A DNA stretch of 63,507 nucleotides, taken from NCBI RefSeq assembly GCF_021026315.1, contig NZ_JAJNCX010000019.1, positions 1 to 63,507 on the forward strand, written 5' to 3'. Shown in pieces: positions 43,270 through 63,344 of this stretch. The first letter of the stretch is position 1, and the number at the start of each line of letters is the position of its first letter. Below the pieces are notes generated by a model. The model saw nothing but the letters and a program-made list of their open reading frames with translations, was not told the DNA's origin and ran no database searches. Source of the stretch: Rhizobium sp. C4. Lineage in GTDB: Bacteria; Pseudomonadota; Alphaproteobacteria; Rhizobiales; Rhizobiaceae. A program made the translations under genes and the position numbers.

Positions 43270-43758
43270 TCAGACAGGAATCTGTTTTCTTTCCGAAATC
43301 GGACCGGGCAGCGTCTGCGGGTCTTCCTCCAGCTTGCGGGCGTTTTCGACCAGCCAGCGCATGTATTCCAGCACAAGCTCCCGCTCGAAACGCCGGAAAC
43401 CGGAAAACATCGCATCCTCGGCCGCCCGCGCCGCCTGCTCCGCCTCCTCCTGCATCGCCCTGGCACGATCGGTCAGGAACAGCAATTGCGCCCGCTTGTC
43501 GCTCGGGTGCGGCCGCCGCTCGACCAGCCCGTCGCGCTCCATGCGGGTCAGCGTGTTGGCCATGGTCGCCTGTTCGATGTCGAGCCGGTCGACGAGCTGG
43601 CGCTGTGTCAGCCCATCCTCCGCCCACAGGGCAACGAGGATCGGATACTGGCCGGGAGAAAAGCCAAGGCTCGCCGCCCGCTCCTGAAACGACCGGGCAA
43701 AGCCGCGCGCCAGCAGGCTCGAAAGATAGGTCGCGGAACTGGTGAGGTCGAAGGCCAT
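43270..43758 (-). CDS. MarR family transcriptional regulator
   Basis: A 162-residue winged-helix regulator. The MarR core is clear: FSPGQYPILVALWAEDGLTQRQLVDRLDIEQATMANTLTRMERDGLVERR (about residues 35-85), then the wing with HPSDKRAQLLFLTDRAR, and a C-terminal dimerisation helix. Start ATG 43758; a TTG at 43794 would add 12 residues. It probably senses a small aromatic or oxidant signal, but the target is unknown; the M20 dipeptidase gene directly downstream may be in the same transcript. The long hairpin-rich region upstream is treated separately. Confidence 0.9.
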   Translation of the reverse strand: MAFDLTSSATYLSSLLARGFARSFQERAASLGFSPGQYPILVALWAEDGLTQRQLVDRLDIEQATMANTLTRMERDGLVERRPHPSDKRAQLLFLTDRARAMQEEAEQAARAAEDAMFSGFRRFERELVLEYMRWLVENARKLEEDPQTLPGPISERKQIPV

Positions 43759-43849
43759 GCCCGAATTGATAGACGAGGCAGCGATTCGCGGCAATCAGAA
43801 CCAAAGCAGGCTATGCAACTTGAGGGGCGGCTAAATCATGCGGGGAAGC

Positions 43850-44007
43850 CTGAAAACGCAAAAGCCGCCATGGCCTGGAGGGGGACGCCATGGCGGCTTG
43901 CGATTTGGGGACAAAGACCCGGAGAGGGGGGATGAGGTCTTTGTCCACGTCTGACAAAGGCGGGGGACAGGCCGTTTGTCAGACAGCGGCGTGATCAATC
44001 GCCGACA
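43850..44007 (-). ncRNA. Candidate small RNA 2 (C-rich-loop hairpins, alpha-r14-like)
   Basis: On the minus strand three hairpins follow each other. C: GTCTGACAAA/TTTGTCAGAC (43949-43958 with 43975-43984), loop CUGUCCCCC. B: 43910-43919 with 43936-43945, loop UCAUCCCCCCUCUCCG. A: a perfect 13-bp stem, 43862-43874 with 43887-43899, loop GUCCCCCUCCAG, followed by UUUUGCGUUUUC, so A is an intrinsic terminator. Upstream, CTTGAA-N17-CCATTT (44014-44042) resembles a heat-shock-type promoter. The C-rich loops could pair with Shine-Dalgarno sequences, as in the rhizobial alpha-r14 and Rhodobacter CcsR RNAs. The ends are estimated. Confidence 0.55.
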
Positions 44008-44013
44008 GGTCCA

Positions 44014-44042
44014 AAATGGCCGTCAGAATGTGGCTTTTCAAG
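44014..44042 (-). promoter_or_regulatory. Candidate promoter of small RNA 2
   Basis: On the minus strand CTTGAA (44037-44042), exactly 17 bp, then CCATTT (44014-44019), giving a start near 44007. CTTG at -35 with a C-rich start to the -10 is the pattern of RpoH-type promoters in alphaproteobacteria. A GGATTAC/GTAATCC hairpin at 44050-44069 lies just upstream. Confidence 0.45.
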
Positions 44043-44127
44043 GTCGCGGGGATTACAAATTGGTAATCCGGAGGTGACCGGAAGGTGCCCTGCCCCCTGC
44101 GCCGTGCAACTCACAAGCCATTGATCA

Positions 44128-44286
44128 TGAAAAGAAATTGGCCGCAACGGAGGGGGCTTTTCCGTTGCGGCCGGGTATGTGGCGCGGCTTCATGGGGCGA
44201 TGACGCCGCGATTGGCGCGAACAATTAAGGGGGACGGTTTCGCGCCGTATGGGCCGCAGGCGGCGGCCTCTGAAAATGAAGGTGCT
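44128..44286 (-). ncRNA. Candidate small RNA 1 (C-rich-loop hairpins, alpha-r14-like)
   Basis: On the minus strand: a GGCCGC/GCGGCC hairpin (44252-44268); hairpin F (GGCGCGAA 44214-44221 with TTCGCGCC 44239-44246), loop ACCGUCCCCCUUAAUUG; and hairpin E, a perfect 12-bp stem (44140-44151 with 44161-44172), loop AAAGCCCCC running into UCC, then AAUUUCUUUUC, a terminator. The promoter-like CTGAAA-N17-CCATTT (44293-44321) is weaker than that of small RNA 2 but shares its -10 and spacing. Two related units in tandem suggest a duplicated small RNA gene. The ends are estimated. Confidence 0.5.
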
Positions 44287-44317
44287 GCCCGAAAATGGCG
44301 ATTTGATGATCCCGTTT

Positions 44318-44893
44318 TCAGTTCGGGCAGGTTCTCAGCTGTGCCGCATAGCGATAGGCGATCTTGGTGAAGCGCTGCGCGCCATTGAGCGCCTCGGCAT
44401 TGCCGACATAGCTCTGCCGCGCATAGCCCTGCTGCCCGGAATGATAGGCGAGATAGAGATTGTAGGGATCGTTGAGTGCGATCCTGTTCGTCTCGTAGCT
44501 CTTGCGGTGGAACCAGCCGGCAAAGTCGACCGCATCGGCAAAGCTGGTGCGCCGCGCCGTCAGGCGGCCGGTTTCGGCCACGTAATGCGACCAGGTGCCG
44601 TCGAGCGCCTGCGAATAGCCATAGGCGGTCGACGGGCGCGACCACGGAATGAAGCCGAGCAGCTTCCTGCGCGGCGGGCGGGCGGTGGAGCGGAAACCGG
44701 ATTCGGTGTAGATCGTGGCAAGCAGGATCGGCGCCGGGACACCCCAGCGGGCCTCCGCCTTTCTGGTCGCATCGCGCCAGTTGTTGAAGAAGCCGTCGTT
44801 CTCGTCAAAGAGCGCGCAGGCATTCGTCGTATGCCGCGGCACGCTCGCGCAGCCTGCCAGAACCAGCAGACATGCCAGAAACACCCAACGCAT
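44318..44893 (-). CDS. Lytic transglycosylase SLT-domain lipoprotein
   Basis: Predicted outer-membrane or periplasmic lipoprotein that cleaves peptidoglycan. The 191-residue precursor has a lipobox LVLAGC (signal peptide MRWVFLACLLVLAG, lipidated Cys16), then an SLT/lysozyme-like fold: the catalytic Glu in ATIYTESGFRS, AYGYSQALDGTWSHYV, and the later DPYNLYLAYHSGQQGYAR with the G-x-x-x-Y pattern. Start ATG 44893, which fits the signal peptide; an upstream start at 44977 would hide it. Its 3' end overlaps the proposed promoter of small RNA 1. Confidence 0.9.
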   Translation of the reverse strand: MRWVFLACLLVLAGCASVPRHTTNACALFDENDGFFNNWRDATRKAEARWGVPAPILLATIYTESGFRSTARPPRRKLLGFIPWSRPSTAYGYSQALDGTWSHYVAETGRLTARRTSFADAVDFAGWFHRKSYETNRIALNDPYNLYLAYHSGQQGYARQSYVGNAEALNGAQRFTKIAYRYAAQLRTCPN

Positions 44894-45097
44894 CGTCACT
44901 ACTCCATACAAACATGCCGACGACACACGGGACGGAAACAACCCGCAACGGCATGGACTGAACGCCTGGTCCGCCACGAAAGACGCATGGCGGCGATCGG
45001 ACCTCAGACCATTTATAAATCGTGAAGATTAACGTTCGGTTTTTAGGCAATTCGCACTTCTCGCGAGGTGCGCAGGTTTGGCCTCGCAAGATTGGCT

Positions 45098-45127
45098 TTG
45101 ACAGGCGGCGGCAAGATGAGTAAGGGA
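45098..45127 (+). promoter_or_regulatory. Weak candidate promoter of the FYDLN gene
   Basis: TTGACA at 45098-45103 is a perfect -35, but the hexamer 17 bp later (TAAGGG) is a poor -10. It lies about 75 bp before the GTG start at 45204. The remainder of 44894-45203 shows no gene or strong hairpin. Confidence 0.3.
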
Positions 45128-45203
45128 CCGGCTTGATTTTATTTCGTCTCAACCGCCAGTCTGGCATGACCGGACACGAGATGGCGAAACACGAGGTTTA
45201 ACC

Positions 45204-45596
45204 GTGGCGAAAGCAGAACTTGGCACGAAACGTGTCGACCCGGATACGGGCCGCAAATTCTATGACCTGAACCGCGACCCGATCGTCTCGCCCTACACGG
45301 GCAAGTCCTATCCGCTCTCCTTCTTCGAAGAGACGAAGGTCAGCGCGCTGATGGAAAAGGAAGAAGAGGAAGACGTCGCAGAGGTCGATACCGAGAACAC
45401 GGAAATCGAGCTCGTCTCTCTCGAGGACGCCGATGACGAAGCAGCAGGCGCGACCGAAGACCTGCCGGATCTGGGCGACGACGACGTCGAACTCGACGAC
45501 GATGACGACGACACCTTCCTCGAAGCCGATGAAGATGACGAAGACGACGACATGTCGGGCATCATCAGCGTCAACAGCGACGAAGACGAAGTCTGA
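45204..45596 (+). CDS. FYDLN acid domain protein (TIGR02300 family)
   Basis: A 130-residue protein with a conserved N-terminus (MAKAELGTKRVDPDTGRKFYD, then LNRDPIVSPYTGKSYPLSFF) and a very acidic C-terminal half dominated by Asp and Glu (for example VELDDDDDDTFLEADEDDED). The family is widespread in alphaproteobacteria, usually in one copy; the paired cysteines found in some members (CP-TG-KFYDLN) are replaced here by DPDTG. The function is unknown. It starts at GTG 45204. It is located just before tRNA-Ala and is transcribed in the same direction. Confidence 0.9.
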   Translation: MAKAELGTKRVDPDTGRKFYDLNRDPIVSPYTGKSYPLSFFEETKVSALMEKEEEEDVAEVDTENTEIELVSLEDADDEAAGATEDLPDLGDDDVELDDDDDDTFLEADEDDEDDDMSGIISVNSDEDEV

Positions 45597-45770
45597 TTTG
45601 CAAGAATTTCGCCCCGCAGGACGCTGATGTTCGCGGGGCGGAGACAAGGCCAGAAGAAAAAATTCCGGCCTTTCGAATTTGGGGCTTGCCAACGCGAATT
45701 TGCAGCGTTATCAAGCCGCCACCTTCCGGGACCCCAATCCCGGGCTCGCAGCCGAAAGGCTCGCAAGGAT

Positions 45771-45846
<76 letters not shown>

Positions 45847-45921
45847 AACCTTCTCCGGACCATGAACACGATATTGACCGCGCAACGTGTCAGGCGTGTT
45901 AAATGAGCGCGCTGCGCACGC

Positions 45922-46023
45922 TCACTCCACAGCGACAACTGACAAAAGGTCGACGGCCACCATCGATGCCGCCACAAGCGCCAGGATGCCGTAGGTCGTC
46001 CATTTCACGAAAGTCTTGTTCAC
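45922..46023 (-). CDS. Tiny hydrophobic membrane protein (33 residues)
   Basis: Starts at GTG 46023 with GGAGAG six bases upstream and ends at TGA 45922-45924. The product, MNKTFVKWTTYGILALVAAS then MVAVDLLSVVAVE, has a short basic start and a single hydrophobic helix of about 20 residues, the layout of small bitopic membrane proteins. Too short for most gene finders. Support is the ribosome-binding site and topology; conservation is untested. It lies between tRNA-Ala and the TadG-like gene. Confidence 0.45.
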   Translation of the reverse strand: MNKTFVKWTTYGILALVAASMVAVDLLSVVAVE

Positions 46024-46117
46024 GCCGTCTCTCCATGCGGGTTTCCGATGGAGGGTAAACTGGTGGCGTCATGTGGGGATTTCAAGACGGAACGCGCCGC
46101 CAATCGATGCCTTCGGA

Positions 46118-47329
46118 TCAGTTGGTCATGCGCGTCGTCTGATTCGCCACCTTGCCGCCGATATCGCTGAAGGCCCTGATGAGGCTGGGCATATCGGACG
46201 CCTTGTAGGCGTTCGAGGCATCGCCTGAGCAGGACTTCAGCAACGCCTCTCCGTTCGGCGGCGCCATGTAGGCGACCGTGAAGATGATGACGCCTGCGCT
46301 ACGCGCGGCGGTGCAGGTCGCCAGCGTTTTGCTGTCGAGTGCAGGATTCCAGTTGCCGCTGTTGCCGGTGTTTTCGCCGTCCGTCATGAGAACGATGAAC
46401 TTCTTGAACTGCTTGTTGCCCTTGGAGGTCTGCGTGCTCGCCTCTGTCGCGGCGTTCAGCGCGGAGTTGGCCGTGCTCATGCCGCCGGTCATGTCGGTGC
46501 CGCCGGTCGGATTGGCCGGCAGTGCTGTCACATAGTCGCGAGAAGACTTCGTGCCCCAGGCCAGGTTGGAAGGCGTCTGCGTCTGGTCATTGAACGAGAC
46601 GACGCCGGTGCGGACGAGAGAATTGGTCGTATCGACCGACTCGATCGAGTCCATCTGATCGAACAGGGCTGCCGCCGCCGTCTTCAGCGACGACATCTTG
46701 TTGATGTAGCAAGGCTTGCCGTAGGACTGGTAGGGCCAGTTGTCTTCGAAATACTGCCAGCAGCCATTGGGCTGGCTTGTATCCTGGGTGTTGGTCGGCC
46801 ATGACATGGAACCCGACCGGTCGACCACCAGATAAAGCGACAGCGCTGTCGCCGTCTGCGCCTGGCTCGTCGCCGTGCTGCTTCCACCCACCGTGCGGTT
46901 GCCGGCGGAATGAAACGCGGAGAAGGCCAGCATCTGCGACGTGAACTTGCCGGTCACCTTGACGGTGTAGTCCTTCTTGTTGCCACTGCCCTGGCTCGTG
47001 ACCGTAGCAACCAGCGAAGCCTTCAGTTCCTTCACCTGCGCATCCGAAAGCGTCGACGAAATCTGGCCGGAGGCAATGCGCATGGCGAAATTCTGCGCCT
47101 GCGACGTCGTGATGTCGCCATTGGTCAGCGCCGAGGCTGTCGCAAGCGATGCTGCGTCCAGCGACTCGGAAAGCTTCGACTTGTCCGAAAGAAGCTTGGA
47201 GATATCGAGGCTGACGGCAACAGCCCCCAGAATCACGGGTATCAGAATCGCGGAAAGGATCCCGAAATTGCCTTGCTTGTTGCCCGCCAAACGGCCGGCC
47301 ATCGACTTCAAAGAGCCATGAATGCGCAT
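46118..47329 (-). CDS. TadG-like protein with VWA domain
   Basis: A 403-residue protein with an N-terminal TadE/TadG-type membrane segment (NKQGNFGILSAILIPVILGAVAVSLDISK, about residues 17-45) followed by a von Willebrand factor A domain with a complete MIDAS: LVVDRSGSMSW, TGGTDMTGGM and IVLMTDGENTGNSGN. Such proteins belong to the Tad/Flp pilus and related surface systems, where they are thought to act at the envelope. No tad/cpa cluster is nearby, so this is an orphan copy. Start ATG 47329. Confidence 0.88.
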   Translation of the reverse strand: MRIHGSLKSMAGRLAGNKQGNFGILSAILIPVILGAVAVSLDISKLLSDKSKLSESLDAASLATASALTNGDITTSQAQNFAMRIASGQISSTLSDAQVKELKASLVATVTSQGSGNKKDYTVKVTGKFTSQMLAFSAFHSAGNRTVGGSSTATSQAQTATALSLYLVVDRSGSMSWPTNTQDTSQPNGCWQYFEDNWPYQSYGKPCYINKMSSLKTAAAALFDQMDSIESVDTTNSLVRTGVVSFNDQTQTPSNLAWGTKSSRDYVTALPANPTGGTDMTGGMSTANSALNAATEASTQTSKGNKQFKKFIVLMTDGENTGNSGNWNPALDSKTLATCTAARSAGVIIFTVAYMAPPNGEALLKSCSGDASNAYKASDMPSLIRAFSDIGGKVANQTTRMTN

Positions 47330-47550
47330 GACGAGTTCAACTTCCGTGCTGACAGATGGCTTTTTATAGATGTGAGGGGATTAACATCCTCCTTCCACGA
47401 TCCGAAAAATTTGAATGATGGTCCGATTTTCGACAAAACTCGGATTCGGCTTAAACGTTTATCAACGAAGTCTGAAATAGCCCGGCTCAAGCCTCACGGA
47501 AGCTCAGACACCTATGTTGCAGACAGACGGGCCGCAGCTGGGAGGGCTTC

Positions 47551-48198
47551 ATGGGTTTCGCCGATATCCTGAACTATGCGGGCATCGCCGTTTTCGCGGC
47601 GACCGGCGCCCTGTCGGCATCGCGAAAGCAGATGGACATCATCGGCTTCCTGTTTCTGGCTATTGTCACGGCGGTCGGCGGCGGAACGCTCAGGGACCTG
47701 ATCCTCGGCAACGTGCCGGTCTTCTGGGTCGTCAATCCGATCTACATCATGGTCTGCACGGGCGTCGCCGTGCTGCTGTTCTTTACCGCGCATCTGCTGG
47801 AATCGCGCTATGTCTGGCTGCTCTGGCTCGACGCGATCGGACTGGCGGCCTATTGCGTGATCGGCGCGCAGAAGGGACTGGAAGCGTCAGGCTCGCCGAC
47901 CGTCGCCATCGTCACCGGCGTGCTCACCGCCGCCTTCGGCGGCATCCTGCGCGACCTGCTGACGGGAGAACCCTCCGTCCTCCTCCGGCCCGAGATCTAT
48001 GTGACGGCAGCCCTTGCCGGCGCCGGCGCCTATACGGCCCTTGTCCAGCTTGATCTGTCGCATGCGCTGTCGGCGGCCATCGCCGCGCTGGTCGCCTTCA
48101 TCATCCGTGGCGGCGCGCTGAAATTCGGCTGGCGCCTTACCGGCTACCGCCAGCGACCCGGGCGCCATCCGGACGAAATTCCGTCCATGCGCCGATAA
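47551..48198 (+). CDS. TRIC/UPF0126 family membrane channel protein
   Basis: Seven-helix membrane protein of the trimeric intracellular cation channel (TRIC; UPF0126/YicG) family. The 215-residue protein has the internal repeat with the conserved glycine motif in both halves: AVGGGTLRDLILGNVPV and AFGGILRDLLTGEPSVL. Prokaryotic members conduct monovalent cations in vitro; the physiological role is unclear, with glycine transport proposed for some. Start ATG 47551 has GGGAGG just upstream. Single gene; 47330-47550 upstream contains AT-rich sequence but no other clear feature. Confidence 0.9.
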   Translation: MGFADILNYAGIAVFAATGALSASRKQMDIIGFLFLAIVTAVGGGTLRDLILGNVPVFWVVNPIYIMVCTGVAVLLFFTAHLLESRYVWLLWLDAIGLAAYCVIGAQKGLEASGSPTVAIVTGVLTAAFGGILRDLLTGEPSVLLRPEIYVTAALAGAGAYTALVQLDLSHALSAAIAALVAFIIRGGALKFGWRLTGYRQRPGRHPDEIPSMRR

Positions 48199-48301
48199 GT
48201 CCGGCCACGGCTATTGAGCCTTGCTAAAAGCAGGCTTCAGATTTTCGGATCAATGAGGAAAAGATTGAGGCGAGGTCCAGCAAGCGAACCGCTTCAGCAG
48301 A

Positions 48302-48724
48302 TCAGCGCGTCGCCTTGCGGCGCAGACGGATGACCACGTCGACATGGGCGATTTCCATGCCTTCCGGCGGCTCCGGCAGGTTGCTGATCTCGAGATTGCT
48401 CACCGGAATATCGACGACTTCGCTGTCGCCTTCGACATAGAAGTGATGATGGTCGGAGACATTCGTGTCGAAATAGGTCTTGGCGCTCTCGATGGCGAGC
48501 ACGCGCAGCAGGCCGGCTTCGGTGAACTGGTGCAGCGTGTTGTAGACGGTCGCCAGAGACACCGGCACGCCCGCAAAGGTCGCCTCTTCATGCAGCTCTT
48601 CGGCCGTCAGATGGCGGTCGCCCTTGGCGAACAGCAAATCCGCAAGCGCAATCCGCTGCCGCGTCGGCCGCAAGCCGGAGTGGCGCAGCCTGCTTTCGGT
48701 ATCAGGAAGCATCGAAGGGTTCAT
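48302..48724 (-). CDS. irr: Iron response regulator Irr (Fur family)
   Basis: Fur-superfamily regulator that in rhizobia represses heme and iron-using genes under iron limitation and is controlled by heme. The 140-residue protein has the winged helix (LRPTRQRIALADLLFAKGDRHLTAEELHEEA; VSLATVYNTLHQFTEAGLLRV) and the Irr-type metal/heme region SDHHHFYVEGDSEVVDIP in place of Fur Cys motifs. Start ATG 48724. It is divergent from fabA across 425 bp, a rhizobial arrangement. No iron control element was recognised by eye in that gap. Confidence 0.93.
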   Translation of the reverse strand: MNPSMLPDTESRLRHSGLRPTRQRIALADLLFAKGDRHLTAEELHEEATFAGVPVSLATVYNTLHQFTEAGLLRVLAIESAKTYFDTNVSDHHHFYVEGDSEVVDIPVSNLEISNLPEPPEGMEIAHVDVVIRLRRKATR

Positions 48725-49149
48725 GCGTCTCAAGCCGTCTTGCTACATCGGTATAAAAGTGGACGAATTCACTACTGTTTATCATATATCGCGCCGCCGA
48801 CGCCGTTGCAACCGCTTCATGTCAGCCGAAGGCCGCAAAAACCTGTCGTTAAGCGCATCAACACGAAAACAGTACTGGCTGCAGGCTTGCAACTCGACTA
48901 AGAAACCGCACAATGAAGCTGGTATCGTGGCCGGCAAGGGCGAAAGCCCGATTGGGGGAATTGCAAGGTCCAGCGCCAAGCGCCATATGAGGCAGCGCGC
49001 GCCGTATCCGGGCCTTGGGAGTTTCCCCCGCGTAGATTTTTTTGCTAGAGGCTTCCGGAGCGATATCCTCCTGAGCCTTATGCAAGGTGGGCAATGTCGC
49101 GGCTGAACCAAGAACGCGGTTCGCAGACGGAATTAGGGACCTGCATTTG
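48725..49149. other. irr-fabA divergent intergenic region
   Basis: 425 bp without a supported gene. It must hold the promoters of irr and of fabA. An AT-rich stretch at about 48765-48790 (TTTATCATATAT) is the best candidate for the irr promoter. No palindrome resembling a known iron or fatty-acid operator was recognised, and I see no small gene with a good ribosome-binding site. Confidence 0.4.
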
Positions 49150-49665
49150 ATGACCTCCAGGAAGTCCAGTTTTACATACGAAGAGATTTTGACCTGCTCG
49201 CACGGGCAGATGTTCGGCCCGGGCAATGCGCAATTGCCGCTGCCGCCGATGCTGATGCTGCACAGGATCACCGAAATCTCCGAAACAGGCGGTCCGAACG
49301 ACAAGGGTTTCGCGCGTGCGGAATTCGACATCACGCCCGATCTCTGGTTCTTCCCCTGCCATTTCGAAGGCGATCCGGTGATGCCGGGCTGCCTCGGCCT
49401 CGATGCGCTCTGGCAGCTCACGGGCTTCTATCTCGGCTGGCTCGGCGAGCCCGGCAAGGGCCGCGCCATCTCCACCGGCGAGGTGAAGTTCACCGGCCAG
49501 ATCACGCCTGAGACGAAGCTGGTCGAATTCGGCATCGACTTCAAGCGCGTCATGCGCGGCCGCCTCGTGCTCGGCATTGCCGATGGCTGGGTGAAGGCCG
49601 ACGGTGTCGAGGTCTTCAAGGCCGCTGACCTTCGTGTGGGGCTTTTCAAGGAAAAGGCAGCCTGA
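49150..49665 (+). CDS. fabA: 3-hydroxydecanoyl-ACP dehydratase/isomerase
   Basis: Dehydrates 3-hydroxydecanoyl-ACP and isomerises trans-2- to cis-3-decenoyl-ACP, the entry point of anaerobic unsaturated fatty acid synthesis. The 171-residue hot-dog-fold protein has the catalytic His in [15 protein letters not shown] and the Asp in [16 protein letters not shown]. Start ATG 49150 ([16 protein letters not shown]). fabB and fabI follow in the same direction, so one operon probably supplies dehydration, condensation and reduction for unsaturated lipids. Confidence 0.98.
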
Positions 49666-49804
49666 CGCCCCGTCAGATGCTGAATTGGGCCGCATTTGGG
49701 CGGCAGTCAATCTCGCGCGCGGCAAAGCGTCGTGCCGAAGACACGAGGGAGGAAAGGCCAGATCACGGCCTTTCATGCTTCCGGTTAGAAGAAGGTAAGG
49801 ATAC

Positions 49805-51037
49805 ATGAGACGGGTCGTCATCACGGGTCTCGGAATTGTTTCGTCGATCGGCAACAATGCTGACGAGGTCACGCAGTCGCTGAAGGATGCCCGTTCCGGC
49901 ATCAGCGCATCGCCGGACTTCGCTGAACACGGCTTCCGCTGCCAGGTCTGGGGCCGCCCGACGCTGGGCGCCGAACAGCTGGCCGAGATGGTCGACCGTC
50001 GCGCCATGCGCTTCCTGTCGCAGGGCGGTGCCTGGAACCATGTCGCCATGAAGCAGGCGATTGCCGATGCCGGCCTCGTCGAAGGCGACTATGCCGAAAA
50101 CGAGCGTGTCGGCATCATCATGGGCTCCGGCGGCCCCTCGACCCGCCAGGTCGTGGAAGCAGCCGACATCACCCGCGCCAACAAGAGCCCGAAGCGCATC
50201 GGCCCGTTTGCCGTGCCGAAGGCCATGTCCTCGACCGCATCTGCCACGCTTGCCACCTGGTTCAAGATCCACGGCGTCAACTATTCGATCTCGTCTGCCT
50301 GCTCGACCTCGGCGCATTGCATCGGCAATGCCGCAGAGATGATCCAGTGGGGCAAGCAGGACATGATGTTCGCCGGCGGCCACGAAGACCTCGACTGGAC
50401 CATGTCGAACCTCTTCGATGCCATGGGCGCCATGTCCTCCAAGTATAACGACACGCCCGCAACCGCATCGCGCGCCTATGACGCCTCGCGTGACGGCTTC
50501 GTGATTGCCGGCGGCGCCGGCGTTCTGGTTCTCGAAGAACTCGAACACGCCAAGGCCCGCGGCGCCAGGATCTACGCCGAAATCACCGGCTATGGCGCCA
50601 CCTCCGACGGCTACGACATGGTCGCTCCCTCGGGCGAAGGCGCAATGCGCTGCATGCGCCAGGCGCTGAAGACCGTGCAGGGCGAAGTCGACTACATCAA
50701 CACCCACGGCACCTCGACGCCGGTTGGCGACAGCAAGGAAATCGGCGCGATCCGCGAAGTTTTCGGCGACCGCATTCCGCACATCCAGTCGACCAAGTCG
50801 CTGACGGGCCATTCGCTCGGCGCTGCCGGCGTGCAGGAATCCATCTACGGCCTCCTGATGATGCAGAACCGCTTCATCGGCGAAAGCGCCCACATCACCG
50901 AGCTGGACCCGGAATTCGATGGCGTTCCGATCGTGCGGAAGCGCATCGACGATGCGAAGATCGACACCGTCCTTTCGAACTCCTTCGGCTTCGGCGGAAC
51001 CAATGCCACGCTGGTCTTCCAGCGCTACAACGGATAA
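49805..51037 (+). CDS. fabB: 3-oxoacyl-ACP synthase I
   Basis: Condensing enzyme that elongates acyl-ACPs, including the cis-3-decenoyl intermediate from FabA. The 410-residue thiolase-fold protein has the catalytic Cys in [12 protein letters not shown] and the two histidines in [11 protein letters not shown] and [12 protein letters not shown], with the C-terminal [13 protein letters not shown]. Start ATG 49805 is preceded by a purine-rich AAGAAGGTAAGGA. The fabI start is 5 bp after its stop. Confidence 0.98.
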
Positions 51038-51042
51038 TTTCC

Positions 51043-51849
51043 ATGACGGGTTTCATGCAGGGTAAACGCGGCCTCATCATGGGGGTTGCCAACAATCATT
51101 CCATCGCCTGGGGCATTTCCAAGGCGCTTCATGCGCAGGGCGCGGAACTCGCCTTCACCTTTCAGGGCGAGGCGCTGGGCAAGCGCGTGAAGCCGCTAGC
51201 CGCCGAAGTCAATTCCGACATCGTGCTGCCCTGCGACGTCGAGGACATCGCCTCTGTAGATGCGGTCTTCGCGGCCCTGAAGGAGCGCTGGGGCACGATC
51301 GACTTCGTCGTGCATGCCATCGGCTTCTCCGACAAGAACGAGCTGAAGGGCCTCTATGCCGACACCACGCGCGAGAATTTCGTGCGCACCATGGTGATCT
51401 CCTGCTTCTCGTTCACGGAAATCGCCAAGCGCGCCGCATCGATGATGAACCCGGGCGGCTCGATCCTGACGCTGACCTATAACGGCTCGCAGCGCGTGAT
51501 CCCGAACTACAATGTGATGGGTGTTGCCAAGGCAGCGCTTGAGGCCTCGATGCGCTATCTCGCCGCCGATTACGGCCCGCGCGACATCCGCGTCAACGCG
51601 ATCTCGGCAGGCCCGGTGCGTACGCTCGCAGGCGCCGGCATTTCGGACGCACGCGCCATGTATTCCTGGAACCAGAAGAACGCGCCGCTGCGCCGTACGG
51701 CCTCGATCGAGGACATCGGCGGCTCGGCGCTTTATCTGCTGAGCGACCTGTCGCGCGGCGTCACCGGCGAAGTGCATTATGTCGATGCCGGCTACAACAT
51801 CACCTCCATGCCGGTGCTCGACCAGCTGATGAAGTCCGACCAGGACTGA
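51043..51849 (+). CDS. fabI: Enoyl-ACP reductase [NADH]
   Basis: NAD(P)H-dependent reductase for the last step of each elongation cycle. The 268-residue SDR protein has the cofactor motif MGVANNHSIAWGISKAL, the catalytic Tyr-x6-Lys in PNYNVMGVAKAALEAS, and the FabI C-terminal region LRRTASIEDIGGSALYLLSD. It is the third gene of the fab operon and is followed by a terminator at 51879. Many rhizobia carry two fabI copies; only one is visible here. Confidence 0.97.
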   Translation: MTGFMQGKRGLIMGVANNHSIAWGISKALHAQGAELAFTFQGEALGKRVKPLAAEVNSDIVLPCDVEDIASVDAVFAALKERWGTIDFVVHAIGFSDKNELKGLYADTTRENFVRTMVISCFSFTEIAKRAASMMNPGGSILTLTYNGSQRVIPNYNVMGVAKAALEASMRYLAADYGPRDIRVNAISAGPVRTLAGAGISDARAMYSWNQKNAPLRRTASIEDIGGSALYLLSDLSRGVTGEVHYVDAGYNITSMPVLDQLMKSDQD

Positions 51850-51878
51850 TCGCTGCAACGCATTGCTGAAAAGAGTGA

Positions 51879-51909
51879 GGCCCGGTCGTTGGGAGCGACC
51901 GGGCCTTTT
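51879..51909 (+). terminator. Rho-independent terminator of the fab operon
   Basis: GGCCCGGTCG (51879-51888) and CGACCGGGCC (51896-51905) form a perfect 10-bp stem with a 7-base loop, followed by TTTT. It is 30 bp after the fabI stop. Confidence 0.88.
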
Positions 51910-52021
51910 CCGTGGGATGGGTCCGCCATCGGCGCGATGGCAATCAGGTCAACGCAGCAATGGCATCAAGACGACCGACAGCCGATACGCAGAAACTTCA
52001 AGCGCCGCTTTCATCCCCGGA

Positions 52022-52270
52022 TTAATCGTTGCAGTCGATCACCTTCATCGAATCCGCCACGCAGACGGCATGCATGCGGTTTTGTGCGCCGAGCTTGCGC
52101 TCAGCACAGAAAAGCAGGGTCTCGACCTCCTGCGTCGCCAAGGCAAGCTTGCGGGCGATCGATTCCACGCCATGACCGGCCCCTGTGAGGGCAAGACACC
52201 TCAGTTCCGACCGGGTCAAGGTTTCGACAAGCGAAACGCTTTCGCCGACCATGCGCGCAGGAATGGTCAC
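52022..52270 (-). CDS. Orphan LuxR-type helix-turn-helix protein
   Basis: An 82-residue protein consisting of little more than a LuxR/FixJ-type DNA-binding domain: TLTRSELRCLALTGAGHGVESIARKLALATQEVETLLFCAERKLGA (about residues 18-63), with a short C-terminal tail. There is no receiver or autoinducer domain. I choose GTG 52270 because GGAGA lies seven bases upstream; a TTG at 52282 would add four residues. It stands alone between the fab operon and an AraC-type gene. Its regulatory target is unknown. Confidence 0.8.
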   Translation of the reverse strand: MTIPARMVGESVSLVETLTRSELRCLALTGAGHGVESIARKLALATQEVETLLFCAERKLGAQNRMHAVCVADSMKVIDCND

Positions 52271-52431
52271 AATAGTCTCCAAAAGACGGTTTCAAAGCGC
52301 TTTAGAAAGCGCGAAAAAATTATGCGCTCGATCCGAGCTGGACCCGCGCATCTCATGAGCGAATATATAAACCGGATTTATCAATCTGTCTTTGACAGAC
52401 CGTGCCAATCGCTTGACATTTGCGCACAATC

Positions 52432-53496
52432 TTATGAACGGGAGGCGCTGTCTTTGACTTTCGTCAAATCTGGACCACGACTGGTGCTTCGGTACTCACG
52501 CGGTGTCGTTCCGAACCAGCGATGGAAGGAGCGGGTAAAGACGCTGGGGGCGGAATAGCCGAGCCTGTAGGACACTTCGGTCGCGCTGAGCGCCGTCTGG
52601 GTCATCAGATGTTCCGCAAGCCGCCGCCGCAGGCCGTCGCGCAGTTCGTTCAGCGTCGTGTCGAGCTCGGCAAGACGACGCTGCAGCGTTCGTTCGGACA
52701 CGCCGAAAAAGCTCGCTGCCGAGGCGAGCGTGATTTCGTCTTCCGACATCCGGGACAGGATGAAGCGCTCCATCTCCTCGCGGAAATCCGCTTCCTCGGT
52801 CAATTCAGGGCGAAGTTGCCGGCATTGCAGGTCCATCAGCTCGAAAAGCTTCGGATCTGCATTTGGATTGGTCAGGGACAGAAGTCCGGAGGGAACCCAC
52901 ATGCTGTTGATGCGACAGTCGAATGTCAGGTGGCTTGCGATGTTTTCGCGATAGAACCGCAGATCGGAGGGCGGCTTGCGCTCCAGCTCGACCTCGATTG
53001 CGGCAGTCCTGGCCCCGAACAGATGGCGGATATGGCGCATGACCAGCGTGATGCCGAGATCGACAAACTGGTCGCGTTTCACGATGACGGGTGCGAATGT
53101 CCAGCGATAGACGAGGTAATTCTCCTCGACCTCCAGCCGCCCGTAGCTGGTCTGGGCGCTGTATTGCATGTGTTCGGCCTGGAAGCGCAGGAAATGCTCA
53201 AGCGTCGGTGCAGCCATCAATCCGTAACCGAAGGGACCCGTCGAGCCGGCCTTGTATTGCAGGCCGAACTTCAGCCCAAAAGCCTCGTCCTTCGTCGCAT
53301 CGGCGCAATATTCCAGAAGCGCACAGAAGCGCCCGAGGCTCACCCGTTCGACCATCGAGCTGAAGAGTGTCGGTTCGATCCCGATCCGCCGGCATTCCGG
53401 CCGAATATCGAGGCCATACCCTTGCGCAAACTCCACCAGCCCCGCGCCCATTCCGGACACGATGCTATAGCGATCTGAAAATGCGTCCCCCGGCAT
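52432..53496 (-). CDS. AraC family transcriptional regulator
   Basis: A 354-residue regulator with an N-terminal Arabinose_bd-like ligand domain (FAQGYGLDIRPECRRIG; FGYGLMAAPTLEHFLRF) and a C-terminal double HTH (ITLASAASFFGVSERTLQRRLAELDTTLNELRDGLRRRLAEHLM; SATEVSYRLGYSAPSVFTRSFHRWFGTTPREYR). This architecture matches the AraC_N/OruR group, often involved in catabolism or quorum-related traits. Start ATG 53496 with TGGGG upstream; an ATG at 53544 would add 16 residues. No target operon is adjacent. Confidence 0.9.
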   Translation of the reverse strand: MPGDAFSDRYSIVSGMGAGLVEFAQGYGLDIRPECRRIGIEPTLFSSMVERVSLGRFCALLEYCADATKDEAFGLKFGLQYKAGSTGPFGYGLMAAPTLEHFLRFQAEHMQYSAQTSYGRLEVEENYLVYRWTFAPVIVKRDQFVDLGITLVMRHIRHLFGARTAAIEVELERKPPSDLRFYRENIASHLTFDCRINSMWVPSGLLSLTNPNADPKLFELMDLQCRQLRPELTEEADFREEMERFILSRMSEDEITLASAASFFGVSERTLQRRLAELDTTLNELRDGLRRRLAEHLMTQTALSATEVSYRLGYSAPSVFTRSFHRWFGTTPREYRSTSRGPDLTKVKDSASRS

Positions 53497-53646
53497 GGCA
53501 GCCCCAGATGTAAAATAAGCGGCGTCTAATGTTAAGACGCACATATATCTTAGAAAGTCTAGGTGTCATGCTTTCCAAAGCGCTTGCGAGCGCCAGCGGC
53601 CCGGCAGATGCGGGCTGAAGGGATCAGAAAAGCGTGGCAGATGGGC

Positions 53647-54663
53647 TTATTTGCGCGCCCAAAGGACCTTGTAGCGCGCGTTGCGGCAGGTCTCGCCATG
53701 CGCCTTGAAGAGGGTCGCCAGCGTGTCCTCGTAAGGAAGGCCGCGATTGGCCACCATCAGCAGGTTGCCGCCGATCTTGAGGATATCCGCGGCCCGCTTG
53801 ACGAAGGCGCGACCAAGGGCCGGGTCTGCGGCATGGCCCTCATGGAAGGGTGGGTTCATGATGACGAAGTCATACTTCGCCTTGATCTCCTCGCCTGCCA
53901 CGTCATGCCAGTTGGCATGCGAGGCAAGACCGGGATGTTCGGCGGCCAGATTGCCCTTGGCCATCTGCAGGGCCGCGTAGTCGGCCTCGTAGAGGTCGAG
54001 CGACTTGAGACGCGGCGAGGCATCGGCCAGCATGACCGAAAGATAGCCCCAGCCGGCACCGAGATCGGCCGCAGCGCCATCGAGATCGGTGGGCAGGCGG
54101 CCGGCCAGCAGTTCTGAACCCGCATCCACCTCGGAATAGGAGAACACACCGGGCGCCGTGCGGAACCGGCCTTCGATCAGCGACGGTTCAGGCGCCAGCG
54201 TCGCGGCCAGCGCATCGGCATTCTCGGGACGGACGAACCAGACGGCCTGGCCGTGATATTTCGGCATGTGATCGCAGGCAACGCCAAGCTTGGCAACGCG
54301 CTTGCGCAGCGCCTCGATGCCGTCTTCCTTGGCACCTGCAAGGACGATCATCGCGCCCGGCTTCGTGCGCCGCAGCGCCTCTGCCACGCGGGCCTCGTTG
54401 CCGCCCTTGAACTTGTCGCAGAGCACCAGCGCCAGATCGTAATCGCTGCCCTGTGCGTCCGGCGTGGCAGTAGCCCCGCCAGCGACCAGACGATTGTAGA
54501 CAGGACGGAAGCCCTGCACGCAGGCAATCTCGGCTGCAAAACCTTCCGGCAGGCGAAAGCCCGCTTCAGCCCCGAGGAACAATGCCTTCTGCTCCGCGCC
54601 GGGCGCGTCAAGCGTTCCGATGTCGAAGGGATGGAAGAGGGTTTTCAGCGCGTCGCGAGCCAT
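53647..54663 (-). CDS. rsmC: RsmC-type class I SAM methyltransferase
   Basis: Predicted 16S rRNA m2G methyltransferase of the RsmC/RlmG type. The 338-residue protein has a degenerate N-terminal methyltransferase-like half and a catalytic C-terminal half with the SAM-binding loop AADLGAGWGYLSVML and the N6/N2-guanine-type motif IMNPPFHEGHAADP. Start ATG 54663; a TTG at 54684 would add seven residues. It lies just downstream of pnp on the same strand, after the pnp terminator, so it is probably a separate unit. Assignment to RsmC rather than RlmG is by overall pattern. Confidence 0.82.
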   Translation of the reverse strand: MARDALKTLFHPFDIGTLDAPGAEQKALFLGAEAGFRLPEGFAAEIACVQGFRPVYNRLVAGGATATPDAQGSDYDLALVLCDKFKGGNEARVAEALRRTKPGAMIVLAGAKEDGIEALRKRVAKLGVACDHMPKYHGQAVWFVRPENADALAATLAPEPSLIEGRFRTAPGVFSYSEVDAGSELLAGRLPTDLDGAAADLGAGWGYLSVMLADASPRLKSLDLYEADYAALQMAKGNLAAEHPGLASHANWHDVAGEEIKAKYDFVIMNPPFHEGHAADPALGRAFVKRAADILKIGGNLLMVANRGLPYEDTLATLFKAHGETCRNARYKVLWARK

Positions 54664-54692
54664 GGTGGTCAAATCCGTGTTCAAACAAAAAA

Positions 54693-54715
54693 GGCGCGGG
54701 AACTGGTCCCGCGCC
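54693..54715 (-). terminator. Rho-independent terminator of pnp
   Basis: GGCGCGGGA (54693-54701) pairs with TCCCGCGCC (54707-54715); six A residues at 54687-54692 give a U-tract on the minus strand. It is 21 bp after the pnp stop and just ahead of the rsmC start. Confidence 0.9.
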
Positions 54716-54735
54716 CGATCGGGAATGGCAAACGC

Positions 54736-56883
<2,148 letters not shown>

Positions 56884-57139
56884 GTCTTGTCCTTCAATAG
56901 AAGGCGGATCAGCCGGCTACCCCTTCGGGGAACGCGCGCTTTCGCCTTTTGATGCAGCACATCACGGGCAAGACAACAGGAAGCTTTGGTCCGACTGGTG
57001 AGACATTCCCACCAAAAGCATCCGGCAATCCTGCCCCATGACAGGCCAACGGTTAAGTTGCGGCATTCCGGCCCATCCGGACAGCCAGCGCCCACCCCGG
57101 TTGACGGGAAGGGAATTCTTGAAAAACACCGCGCTCTTT

Positions 57140-57210
57140 GTTTTGAGCAATTCGGTTTTGAGCAATTCGGGGCGCGAAACCGGTTCCCACTTTCGGCTCG
57201 AAATTGCTCT
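57140..57210. repeat. Tandem 15-mer and dispersed palindromic repeat in the rpsO-pnp gap
   Basis: GTTTTGAGCAATTCG occurs twice in direct tandem (57140-57154 and 57155-57169). The second copy starts a dispersed element with AGCAATT ... AATTGCT ends and the core AAACCGGTTCCCACTTT, of which another copy is at 63345-63388. This element type is common between genes in rhizobia. Bases 56884-57139 show nothing else I can assign. Confidence 0.65.
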
Positions 57211-57221
57211 AGGCGGTGCGA

Positions 57222-57256
57222 CAAGGCCGGCGAAACCGTGAGGCTCGCCGGCCTTG
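57222..57256 (-). other. Perfect 12-bp stem-loop after rpsO (possible pnp control element)
   Basis: CAAGGCCGGCGA (57222-57233) pairs with TCGCCGGCCTTG (57245-57256), 11-base loop, just downstream of the rpsO stop. There is no U-tract. In enterobacteria a stem-loop between rpsO and pnp is the RNase III site for pnp autoregulation; this element has a comparable position. Confidence 0.55.
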
Positions 57257-57263
57257 CAACATA

Positions 57264-57533
57264 TTAGCGGCGGATGCCCAGCGAACCAATCAGCTTGGTG
57301 TAGCGGGCTTCGTCCTTCTTCTTGAGGTAATCAAGAAGCGAGCGGCGGCTGGAAACCATCGTCAGGAGGCCACGGCGGGAATGGTTATCCTTCTTGTGGT
57401 CCTTGAAATGGTCCGTCAGGTTGTTGATGCGTTCCGTCAGGATGGCAACCTGGACTTCCGGAGAGCCGGTGTCGCCTTCGAACGTTGCATATTCCTTGAT
57501 GAGGGCCGTCTTGCGCTCAGCAGTGATCGACAT
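57264..57533 (-). CDS. rpsO: 30S ribosomal protein S15
   Basis: Primary binder of the 16S central domain. The 89-residue protein is canonical: [62 protein letters not shown] and the C-terminal [12 protein letters not shown]. Start ATG 57533. In other Rhizobiaceae it usually follows truB directly; here a 3.6-kb block of transport genes separates them. Downstream is the stem-loop at 57222 and then pnp. Confidence 0.98.
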
Positions 57534-57705
57534 CGTGTGATCCTTTCATATTAAGGAGTAATCGGACGCCACAAGCCGGGATGTCGTCCAGCTTCGGCCA
57601 TGAGGCTTTCGGGCAATTTGCCCAAAGCTGGCTGCGCTATACAGGAAAGCGCTGCGAAAGGGAAGAGGCGGCTTGGCCGCGCAACCTGCGGGGCCTAGCG
57701 CCCCT

Positions 57706-58941
57706 TTATTCGAGCGGCCTGCGCGCCCGGCCGACCAGCGCGAAGCAGGCCATGCCGAGCAGGCCGAGCGCGGCATTGAGGAAGAGCGAGACCGGAATGC
57801 CGAGCCGCTCCATGCCAAGCGCAAAGACGGCGGGTGCGGCAGCGCTCGCCACCAGCCGCGCCGCAGTCATCCGCCCCGCAATCGCGCCATAGCCTTGCGA
57901 CCCGAAGAGATGAAGCGGCACGGAGCCTTGCGCGATGCTGCCGATGCCGGAACCGAGACCGACGCAGAGTGCGAAGACGACGGCTCCGACAAGATTGCCA
58001 TCGGTGATCGCCAGCAGGATACCGCCCAGCGCGATCAGCGCCGAAGACAGCATGGCAAGCCCGGTGGGCGGCAGGCGCTCGCCGAAGATCATGTTCACAA
58101 GCCGGCTCGCCACCTGCGCCGGACCGAAGAGCGCGCTGACCGTAACCGCGGCGACGCCGAGCCCCAGGGCGCCCAGCATCGGCACCATGTGAATGAGGAT
58201 CGACGAGAGCGAGAAGCCCGAGAGTGCAAAGGCAATGGAAACGACGATCATCGCGCGCCGGCGCTCCTGCGGCGCGAGCACGCCGAGGACGGGCGGATGG
58301 GTCGCGGCGCCGGAAACAGGCTCGGCCTGTCCCGAGCCGCGCCGCGCCAGCAGGAGATGCACGGGCAGGCAGAGGACAAGGTTCAATCCGGCAAAGATCA
58401 GATAGATCTCGCGCCAGGTAAAATGCGCCGCAAGCGTGGTGGTGATCGGCCAGAACACACTCGACGCAAAGCCCGCAATCAGCGTGAGATAGGTGATGTT
58501 GCGCGTCGCATTCTGCGGCGCATGCTCGACCAGCGAGGCAAAGGCCGCCTGATAGGTGACCAGACCGCTGGCCACCTGGATCGCAATGACGGCGGCAATG
58601 AAGAACCACACCGCCGGCGACCAGGCGCAGGCAAGAAGCAGGCCCGCGCACAGCGCCGAGCCCAGCACCATCATGCGCGCCGCGCCAAACCGGTCCATCC
58701 AGCCACCCATGAAGGGTGCCGCCAGCCCGCCGCCCAGAAGGGCTGCCGAGAACGTCCCGAATACCGACTCGCGGCTCAGCCCGACATCCTGCGCCATCCC
58801 CGGCGCCAGAATGCTGAAACTGTAATAGAGCGTCCCGTAGCCGACGATCTGCGTCAGCCCGAGCGCCGCGACGATGGCAAGGGAATGGCGGGCGTGAGGT
58901 CTGGACACGGCAGGGCTCTTCGATGCGGACACGACCGGCAT
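57706..58941 (-). CDS. MFS transporter
   Basis: Twelve-helix major facilitator superfamily protein. The 411-residue product starts with a soluble stretch (MPVVSASKSPAVSRPHARHS), then ALGLTQIVGYGTLYYSFSIL, and shows the loop 2-3 motif GGWMDRFGAARMMVLGS and a second-half counterpart GERLPPTGLAMLSSAL. The substrate is unknown; the LTQIVGYGTLYYSF start recalls transporters of the oxalate/formate antiporter-like or YbfB-like groups. Start ATG 58941. It lies between rpsO and the DUF3311-symporter pair, divergent from the latter. Confidence 0.88.
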   Translation of the reverse strand: MPVVSASKSPAVSRPHARHSLAIVAALGLTQIVGYGTLYYSFSILAPGMAQDVGLSRESVFGTFSAALLGGGLAAPFMGGWMDRFGAARMMVLGSALCAGLLLACAWSPAVWFFIAAVIAIQVASGLVTYQAAFASLVEHAPQNATRNITYLTLIAGFASSVFWPITTTLAAHFTWREIYLIFAGLNLVLCLPVHLLLARRGSGQAEPVSGAATHPPVLGVLAPQERRRAMIVVSIAFALSGFSLSSILIHMVPMLGALGLGVAAVTVSALFGPAQVASRLVNMIFGERLPPTGLAMLSSALIALGGILLAITDGNLVGAVVFALCVGLGSGIGSIAQGSVPLHLFGSQGYGAIAGRMTAARLVASAAAPAVFALGMERLGIPVSLFLNAALGLLGMACFALVGRARRPLE

Positions 58942-59354
58942 CAGACAATTCCGGAGAAGACGCGAAGCAGTTTCTCGTTCGGAACAGAATACCGGCAGAA
59001 GGACAGAATGTTTCAGGCGACTTTCTAACTGATCGAGAACGCTTTAGCGGCAGCACCGACCGCTGTCAGCAGAAATCGGGTCCGCGGGAATAAAGGGTGC
59101 AGAATCAGCCGCCTCCGGCCGAAACCTTTCCAAAGTTTAATGTAACTCGCTTGAAAGAAAGCTAAGGCCGGCTTACTGATAATTTTGCTTTTTGATAAGT
59201 TTTCAGATCATCGAAATGCTATCCGGCCGGGGGGCGGATTGCGGGCCAGGTCACCTCATTGCCTTTGCCCATAGCCCCTCCCCGGCAATCCCATCGCATG
59301 CGCTCCGCCCCAGGACGGAAGACATGCTGTCCCGTTCAACATGGAGGAGAGACC
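58942..59354. other. Intergenic region between the MFS gene and DUF3311 gene
   Basis: 413 bp between divergent genes; it must carry both promoters. An AT-rich stretch near 59175-59205 is the likeliest promoter area. I recognise no sigma-54 motif and no strong palindrome. No gene with a convincing ribosome-binding site is seen. Confidence 0.4.
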
Positions 59355-59531
59355 TTGCGTTACATTCTTCTGCTTATTCCCTGCGTCGCCTCCGTCGCGA
59401 CGTGGCTCTACAACATATCCGAGCCGATGCTTTTCGGCATTCCGTTCTTCTACTGGTTCCTGATGCTGCTCATCCCGGTGTCGTCCATTTTCATCTGGCT
59501 TGCCGCCAGAACCGGTGGAGATGAACTGTGA
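59355..59531 (+). CDS. DUF3311 small membrane protein (symporter partner)
   Basis: A 58-residue protein with two hydrophobic helices (YILLLIPCVASVATWLYN; FFYWFLMLLIPVSSIFIWLA), matching the DUF3311 family, which is almost always encoded immediately before a sodium:solute symporter and is probably its accessory subunit. It starts at TTG 59355 with an excellent GGAGGAGA site six to seven bases upstream; longer in-frame starts upstream are not hydrophobic or conserved. Its stop overlaps the symporter GTG start (GTGA), implying coupled synthesis. Confidence 0.85.
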   Translation: MRYILLLIPCVASVATWLYNISEPMLFGIPFFYWFLMLLIPVSSIFIWLAARTGGDEL

Positions 59532-61054: not shown

Positions 61055-61078
61055 CATACTCAGATCCCTGAAACGACA

Positions 61079-61114
61079 GAGGCTGCCGCAAGCGATTGCG
61101 GCAGCCTCTTTTTT
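61079..61114 (+). terminator. Rho-independent terminator of mctP
   Basis: GAGGCTGCCGCAA (61079-61091) and TTGCGGCAGCCTC (61096-61108) form a perfect 13-bp stem with a GCGA loop, followed by TTTTTT. It also separates mctP from the convergent truB. Confidence 0.95.
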
Positions 61115-61140
61115 GTCTCGTATTGCCTGCCGGCTGAGGA

Positions 61141-62073: not shown

Positions 62074-62079
62074 GTCTGC

Positions 62080-62484
62080 TTATTCTTCTGTCTTGTCTTC
62101 ATCGAGATCGCGGGCGACTTCCGGCGAGCGGAGCAATTCGTCGATCTTCTTGTAATTGTCGAAGCTGGTATCGTCGCGGAAGCGCAGCTCGGGCATGTAT
62201 TTCAGCTGGCGAAGCGCCGGGCCAAGGCGGCCACGGATGAACTTGGCATTGCGGTTCAGCGCCGCAACCGTCTCGTCATGATCGGTGGCGCCCAGCGGCG
62301 TCACGAAGGCGGTCGCGACCTTGAGGTCGGACGACATGCGCACTTCCGAGATCGAGATCACGGTCTTCTCGATCAGCGCATCGCGGACATCGCCGCGCTG
62401 AAGCACCTGCGTGATGGCGGCGCGGACCTGCTCGCCGACACGCAGCATGCGCTGCGAGGGAGCCGATGAAGTCGGTTTTTTCAT
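62080..62484 (-). CDS. rbfA: Ribosome-binding factor A
   Basis: KH-fold factor for late 30S assembly and cold adaptation. The 134-residue protein begins [20 protein letters not shown], with IRAAI-type helix ([15 protein letters not shown]), the [17 protein letters not shown] strand pair and [24 protein letters not shown], all typical of RbfA. The C-terminal tail is acidic. infB, the usual upstream partner, is not in the window; a YcxB-like gene lies there instead. Confidence 0.96.
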
Positions 62485-62567
62485 TTTTCTTTCTGTCTGT
62501 ATGTTCTGGCGGCCGCTTTGATGCGGCTAGTTCGGGGTTCGAACCCGGCGGATTTCAAAGAGGCGTC

Positions 62568-63218: not shown

Positions 63219-63344
63219 GTCTTCCTTCCGGTCTTTCGTCAGCCTTTATAGCCTGCTTCGCGTGGCGGCAGAAACGCGATTGCACACTATTGCGTTTCCG
63301 GCGAAAACGGAATCGCCTGAAACGCTCTACCTATTTGTTTTTAT

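Follow-up and report, generated by a model that had tools for sequence, protein, structure and literature searches.

With reference to published work, the systems closest to the locus described here are small RNAs (sRNAs) of Alphaproteobacteria with C-rich loops. In S. meliloti, the RNA named SmelC023, sra03 or smrC7 lies between polA and SMc02851, is listed as a doublet of about 140 and 90 nt (PMC2573895) and has been detected experimentally (PMC2573895, PMC2873474); a review table assigns it RpoD and RpoH1/2 promoters (PMC7143759). Members of the SmelC023 family in Rhizobiaceae are reported with a MarR gene alongside and, with one exception, with polA adjacent, and ReC06 of R. etli is given as a relative (PMC3927594), which is up-regulated by heat shock and displays RpoE-like and RpoH-like promoter motifs (PMC4167512). 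The ar14 sRNAs (RF02344, NfeR1) are described as silencing mRNAs through pairing of their C-rich loops with translation initiation regions (PMC10746234). PmaR of Agrobacterium also has a C-rich loop, whose part in target binding has been demonstrated, and is portrayed in its source as one spoon-like structure that mostly activates its targets, reported there only in Agrobacterium and one Rhizobium strain (PMC6234868). In Rhodobacter sphaeroides, several sRNAs, CcsR1-4, come from one locus under stress sigma factors and are co-transcribed with, and processed from, the ccaF1 transcript (PMC8307010).

In this study, we analysed a window of 63,507 nucleotides (the whole stretch of DNA under consideration) from Rhizobium sp. 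C4, for which an original prediction, made from the sequence alone, had placed two tandem sRNAs with C-rich loops on the minus strand between a MarR gene and an SLT lipoprotein gene. The features are collected in Table 1. At a probability of roughly two in three, we read the locus as two trans-acting sRNA genes, of which unit 1 is ar7 and unit 2 an ar7-like sRNA that is restricted to one clade, has diverged and most likely goes back to an old tandem duplication. It shares its tandem order and C-rich loops with the systems above, the loop being what it has in common with PmaR. CcsR1-4 also carry C-rich loops; differently from them, the units here do not lie beside ccaF1, the immediate neighbours being the SLT-domain gene upstream and the MarR gene downstream.

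Table 1. Features of the tandem sRNA locus, in 5' to 3' order of the minus strand (positions are those of the window)
Feature	Position	Strand	Basis
SLT-domain protein gene, upstream of unit 2	44318..44893	-	PF19489, 217.6 bits
Conserved block GATCATCAAATCGCCATTTTC, putative promoter/operator of unit 2	44291..44311	-	Mean pairwise identity 0.96, 21 columns, 5 genomes
Unit 2, uncatalogued ar7-like sRNA, four hairpins, RNA start inferred	44129..44290	-	Model R1 181.3 bits; Rfam ar7 30.2 bits (below threshold)
Unit 2 5' hairpin, GGCCGC-CGCCU-GCGGCC	44252..44268	-	Identical in 5/5 genomes
Unit 2 hairpin F, loop ACCGUCCCC(C)	44214..44246	-	ACCGUCCCC in 5/5 genomes; 93% of cells paired
Unit 2 hairpin D, GCGGCGUCAU-CGCCCC-AUGAAGCCGC, loop CGCCCC	44184..44209	-	Loop in 5/5 genomes
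Unit 2 terminator-like hairpin E, loop GCCCCCU, tail AAUUUCUUUU	44130..44172	-	Sequence, folding, 5-genome alignment
Dyad GGATTACCAATTTGTAATCC, putative operator, upstream of ar7 -35	44050..44069	-	
ar7 promoter, CTTGAA (44042-44037), N17, CCATTT (44019-44014), RpoH-like	44014..44042	-	Read from sequence
Unit 1, ar7 small RNA (RF02342), three hairpins	43859..44007	-	117.9 bits, gathering score 60, full length
ar7 hairpin 1, loop GUCCCCC	43949..43984	-	GUCCCCCG invariant in 17/17 other ar7 sequences aligned
ar7 hairpin 2, loop CCCCUCUCC	43909..43946	-	Loop invariant in 17/17 aligned
ar7 hairpin 3, intrinsic terminator with U-tail, loop GUCCCCCUCC	43859..43899	-	Single terminator-like site of scan (shuffles mean 1.2)
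MarR-family regulator gene, downstream of unit 1	43270..43758	-	PF01047, 56.9 bits

All five C-run loops that had been predicted, GUCCCCCUCC (hairpin A), UCCCCCCUCUCC (B), GUCCCCC (C), GCCCCCUCC (E) and GUCCCCCUUAA (F), were found on the minus strand as written, and the existence of two tandem structured RNAs is supported by folding as well as by shuffling. The minus-strand folding z-scores were -7.9 for 43859-44007 and -5.8 for 44131-44280, with no shuffle out of 200 matching this stability for either unit, and the minus-strand spacer between them (44008-44130) is unstructured (z -0.6, 49 of 200 shuffles as stable). Counting only hairpins with CCCC in the loop and no fewer than 8 stem pairs, the minus strand of 43850-44290 has five and the plus strand none, against a mean of 0.21 and a maximum of 3 under 300 dinucleotide shuffles. 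Because the plus strands of both units also fold well (z -5.4 for unit 1 and -3.1 for unit 2), folding alone is uninformative on strand, and the assignment rests on the U-tails and the family match. Two hairpins of unit 2, 44268-44252 and 44209-44184, had been overlooked. Hairpins A and E, proposed as terminators, do have U-rich tails on the minus strand only, but a consensus scan of 43500-44600 reports A as its single terminator-like site, which is no excess over the shuffles; hairpin E is not reported by that scan, in which loops were limited to 8. The same scan of 43500-44600 yielded no sigma-70-type promoter. That the hairpins are chance products could be argued from the GC-rich genome, but the shuffle tests, the conservation in five genomes and the Rfam match of unit 1 are all contrary to it, and we regard this explanation as excluded, with a probability that is practically nil.

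Unit 1 is already known, being a full member of the rhizobial sRNA family ar7, which the Rfam scan of the window matched at 44007-43859. We take RF02342 to be the SmelC023/sra03/smrC7/ReC06 family, by name and shared neighbours rather than by a sequence comparison made here. Both loops that are invariant in the ar7 family, GUCCCCCG and CCCCUCUCC, are present in unit 1, and 96% of its alignment columns are invariant in five genomes, with a mean pairwise identity of 0.98. In an alignment of 17 ar7 sequences taken from other genera, pairing is intact in 96.5% of 544 pair cells and both-side changes occur at 23 of the 32 pairs, a number reached by none of 500 shuffles; the stems of unit 1 are therefore conserved by compensatory change, as the original prediction demanded, while unit 2 gains no covariation support from its five sequences. 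This alignment, and the model built on it (R2), comprised 17 of the 24 loci from other genera, leaving out the lowest-scoring ones (L052-L058, 42.9-67.1 bits). The ar7 family exceeded its threshold in 24 of the 61 genomes examined (own, genus, family and order), at one place in each. As in the published SmelC023 family, a MarR gene adjoins unit 1; the adjacency of polA concerns how the genes are arranged rather than the RNA itself, so that the membership of unit 1 rests on its score and loops.

The label given originally, alpha-r14 or CcsR, was mistaken for this reason, since unit 1 belongs to a family that was not named, and the covariance check proposed for alpha-r14 returned RF02342 ar7, while ar14 did not reach its gathering score anywhere in the window; anatomy and strand were right and the family was wrong. 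The ar14 family does have three C-loop hairpins and occurs in tandem in several genomes, its model and that of ar7 cross-match, and the tandem order, at least three hairpins and C-rich loops seen here would suit ar14 or CcsR RNAs. However, ar14 has its own loops, CCUCCUCCC (also PMC10746234), which neither unit carries, and the ar14 model gives just 5.9-14.5 bits on unit 2. With unit 1 matching RF02342, we rejected an ar14 or CcsR identity of the two units as highly improbable. Elsewhere in this same genome (G000), ar14-type matches were noticed at C5:5171, C2:177244, C49:85609 and C34:106538, three of the four over threshold.

The promoter of unit 1 reads CTTGAA-N17-CCATTT and the published RpoH1 motif is CTTGAA-N15-16-CCTATAT (PMC4843759); unit 1 is probably transcribed from a heat-shock (RpoH-type) promoter. 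We also considered 80 named MarR loci (L102-L181, outside the Rfam scan), taken as ar7 because each has GTCCCCCG upstream of MarR. CTTGAA occurs no more than 170 bases upstream of GTCCCCCG in all 80, and the -10 is loosely conserved, as a simple -10 pattern fits just 18 of them. Stress control had been raised in the original prediction; for unit 1 its support comes only from published work on relatives, and for unit 2 it is unsupported.

Upstream of the ar7 -35, the dyad at 44069-44050 follows the pattern RTTAC-N6-GTAAY ([AG]TTAC-N6-GTAA[CT]), which was observed before the ar7 -35 in 69 of the 80 named loci, either 9-11 or 19-20 bases ahead of CTTGAA, about one or two helical turns. These 69 are all the occurrences within the 674,529 bases of the named loci. 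A longer form, RTTACNRATTTGTAAY, searched with no mismatch in ten genomes (the genus and four preselected for known DNA similarity there), was present at ar7 in all ten and at just one further place, in G033; nine genomes thus have a single place and G033 two, and the reversed control pattern gave none. Among 30 ar7 loci, the strict dyad was detected in 19 and a looser TTA-N8-TAA in five more (L047-L050, L057), with neither form in the other six (L046, L053-L056, L058). The neighbouring MarR protein was considered as the binder of the dyad, and this candidate is weakened because the strict dyad persists in ten loci where no MarR homologue lies in the 1.5-kb flank (tblastn, E 1e-4; L031, L037, L039-L044, L051, L052). 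A dyad with a single place in nine of ten genomes gives a handle on a regulator of ar7.

Unit 2 is uncatalogued and so far found in close kin only. No family reached its threshold at unit 2 in the Rfam scan of the window, and we know of no transcript from it. It lies beside ar7 in five of the six genus genomes (G000, G001, G003, G004, G005) and is missing from G002. A model built from these five, R1, which includes the sequence here and whose score in Table 1 is thus self-inclusive, gave strong matches (at least 168 bits) in those five of 394 family genomes and in none of the 389 others under strict filters. With regard to the 80 named MarR loci, two contain unit 2, Rhizobium sp. C1 and 'Rhizobiales bacterium' AFS022961, both within the genus set, to which Rhizobium sp. 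L1K21, a named locus where unit 2 was not found, also belongs.

Conservation in the five genomes was measured as mean pairwise identity with gaps counted as differences. The hairpins of unit 2 reach 0.80, against 0.49 for the spacer 44128-44060, 0.58 for the ar7-MarR spacer, and 0.63 and 0.62 for the third codon positions of the SLT and MarR genes. Given these values, and 0.98 for unit 1, unit 2 is under selection that is less strict than that on ar7. The block at 44311-44291 stands at 0.96, and the supposed 5' leader of unit 2 (44290-44272, 19 bases) at just 0.60. Indels of one or two bases between genomes count against unit 2 as a protein gene. Its pairs are kept, with 97.4% of 190 cells forming, compared with 31-50% in slid controls; both-side changes affect 2 of 38 pairs, all in hairpin D (2 of its 11). 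Shuffled versions reach this number in 51 of 500 cases and the percentage paired in 89 of 500, so that five sequences cannot prove the structure by covariation.

The promoter-like CCATTT with a 17-base spacer stands literally before both units as had been stated, but the -35 of unit 2 is not conserved in an alignment of four loci rows (L004 excluded). This -35, CTGAAA, overlaps the SLT stop codon (44320-44318), and in G003 an insertion splits it from the -10, CTTGAA being there 35 bases before CCATTT. Neither the ar7-type dyad nor CTTGAA at promoter spacing was found at unit 2.

Searched alone against 4227 Rfam families, unit 2 has ar7 as its best family, at E 1e-4 and in register across three hairpins, yet its 30.2 bits at most fail the gathering score of 60, and ar14 is not among the matches listed; the Rfam ar7 model gives 25.2 and 23.2 bits on unit 2 of two other genomes and lists no match for that of the remaining two. 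The model R2, built without the genus, scored the five unit-2 copies at 28.8-34.7 bits, next after the true ar7s, the best other match in 19 kb being 16.3 bits, so the similarity to ar7 exceeds the noise. Conversely, a search with R1 recovers the ar7 place at no less than 17.9 bits in 20 of the 30 ar7 loci and does not list unit 1 of G000, G001 and G005. Unit 2 is not among the ar7 matches of the wider searches, including one of six genomes in which only part of the first-look candidates was scored, which makes genome-wide negatives weak for low scores. As a control, R2 gave 26.0-46.0 bits on ar14 in all 24 loci given, of 32 ar14 loci, and R1 matched 5 of 31 ar14 loci, the best at 31.8 bits. 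Since ar14 scores equally well, scores with the ar7 model point to a kinship of architecture and not to ar7 specifically, and a score near 30 alone does not make unit 2 an ar7 copy. It seems, then, that ar7, ar14 and unit 2 belong together in a broader group of C-loop sRNAs.

In comparison with ar7, unit 2 is alike in the order of its three C-loop hairpins, in the GUCCCC loop of hairpin 1 (five of five genomes, with the fifth C of the ar7 loop GUCCCCC in four) and in its C-rich terminator loop. It differs in having CGCCCC, in all five genomes, in place of the hairpin-2 loop CCCCUCUCC and in an additional hairpin at the 5' end; it lacks the dyad and a CTTGAA at promoter spacing, and it reaches half the threshold score. 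The GUCCCC loop, the terminator loop, the absence of CCUCCUCCC and the same-strand adjacency favour ar7 as the parent. A duplicated locus, as originally proposed, is plausible and still unproven, as ar7 models give unit 2 about 30 bits, short of the threshold of 60, and ar14 does equally well with the ar7 model. In the literature as represented by titles and abstract openings, with most subscription journals outside this scope, no second ar7-like RNA was found.

The main rival concerns the origin of the transcript, and holds that unit 2 is the conserved 3' UTR and terminator of the SLT mRNA, perhaps processed to an sRNA and having no promoter of its own. The SLT stop lies about 30 bases before the inferred start of unit 2, a scan shows no terminator-like site between the two, hairpin E is the first terminator-like hairpin after SLT, and the lack of conservation of the unit 2 -35 would fit as well. 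On the other hand, the 21-base block before unit 2 is far more conserved than the stretch between the stop and the block (0.96 vs 0.35), G003 has an insertion between SLT and the block, and at all ten SLT loci examined in other genera R1 matches do not exceed 13.5 bits, which means that unit 2 is not a general part of SLT mRNAs; in that general form the proposal was rejected, and we consider a 3' UTR origin in this clade unlikely.

A different history is that unit 2 converged on ar7 or descends from another C-loop sRNA, for example ar14, and arrived with a segment of about 37 kb. The gene order lends itself to this, and here the locus departs from the ar7 relatives. Among eight genomes searched, the polA domain lies 2.0-2.7 kb from ar7 in five, namely G002, a genus member that is without unit 2, and G008, G021, G033 and G034 of other genera; it is about 37 kb from ar7, in unchanged relative orientation, in G001 and G003, where the SLT gene and unit 2 thus form part of a segment standing between polA and ar7. 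In G000, polA and ar7 are on different contigs, so that no adjacency was found; the stretches concerned there are 44008-63507 of the window and contig C2. Such an arrival is also in keeping with ar14 equalling unit 2 in score with the ar7 model. Set against this, the ar14 model on unit 2 (R3) is barely above its highest unrelated match of 10.2 bits, the GUCCCC loop is that of ar7 and not CCUCCUCCC of ar14, and unit 2 sits on the same strand directly adjacent to ar7; we hold the arrival to be doubtful, if somewhat less so than the 3' UTR origin. Descent of unit 2 from ar7 by tandem duplication is the reading that we prefer to both.

According to the preferred reading, the minus strand would hold two sRNA genes arranged head to tail. 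Unit 1 would be driven by an RpoH-type promoter under the upstream dyad, with its transcript presumably ending at its own terminator. Unit 2 would be an old tandem duplicate of ar7, since diverged, that keeps the GUCCCC loop and the C-rich terminator loop and differs in the middle loop, the 5' hairpin and the upstream element. Going by what related C-loop sRNAs do, the C-rich loops may pair with G-rich stretches, mainly in translation initiation regions, and this pairing would lower the translation or stability of target mRNAs. To call the loops anti-Shine-Dalgarno-like, as was done at the outset, seems fair, although GUCCCCC would fit GGGGGAC better than plain AGGAGG. The pattern GGGGACGGT close before ATG gave 26 matches in five genomes versus 11 for the reversed pattern; one of the 26 is the other strand of unit 2 itself, and we claim no target from this excess.

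A bolder version, which we put forward tentatively and at somewhat less than even odds, is that unit 2 represents a new sRNA family, born of ar7 tandem duplication in one Rhizobiaceae clade, that lost the RpoH-type promoter and the dyad, had one seed loop changed and came under its own constraint. If so, an sRNA would have been caught in the process of splitting into two copies with GUCCCC targets in common, one driven by stress and the other driven differently. The Rhizobiaceae commonly have C-loop sRNAs, ar14 exceeding its threshold in 37 of 61 genomes of the order and frequently having multiple copies; the origin of new ones is, to our knowledge, poorly documented. The six genomes of this genus, of which five have the second gene and one does not, offer a direct test of how such regulators arise.

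Beyond the five strong matches, R1 produced weak ones of 24.7-34.9 bits in nine further family genomes. Five of the weak matches were scanned with Rfam, four being ar7 and one, in G168, not; those in G276, G322, G285, G388 and G393 fell outside the scan. The G168 match (L067:1501-1606, minus strand) scored 31.4 bits with R1, and its likeness is clearest in the 5' hairpin. Other weak R1 matches of 16-25 bits were noticed on the minus strand at L168:7617-7758, L159:6342-6483, L154:8004-8147 and L131:7344-7485, kilobases beyond MarR in other Rhizobium, and these are possibly further C-loop sRNAs. Elsewhere in the window, the plus strand harbors a tRNA gene at 45771-45843 (63 bits) and a match to the Rfam family RF01793 'ffh sRNA' at 16397-16448 (59.1 bits, threshold 35).
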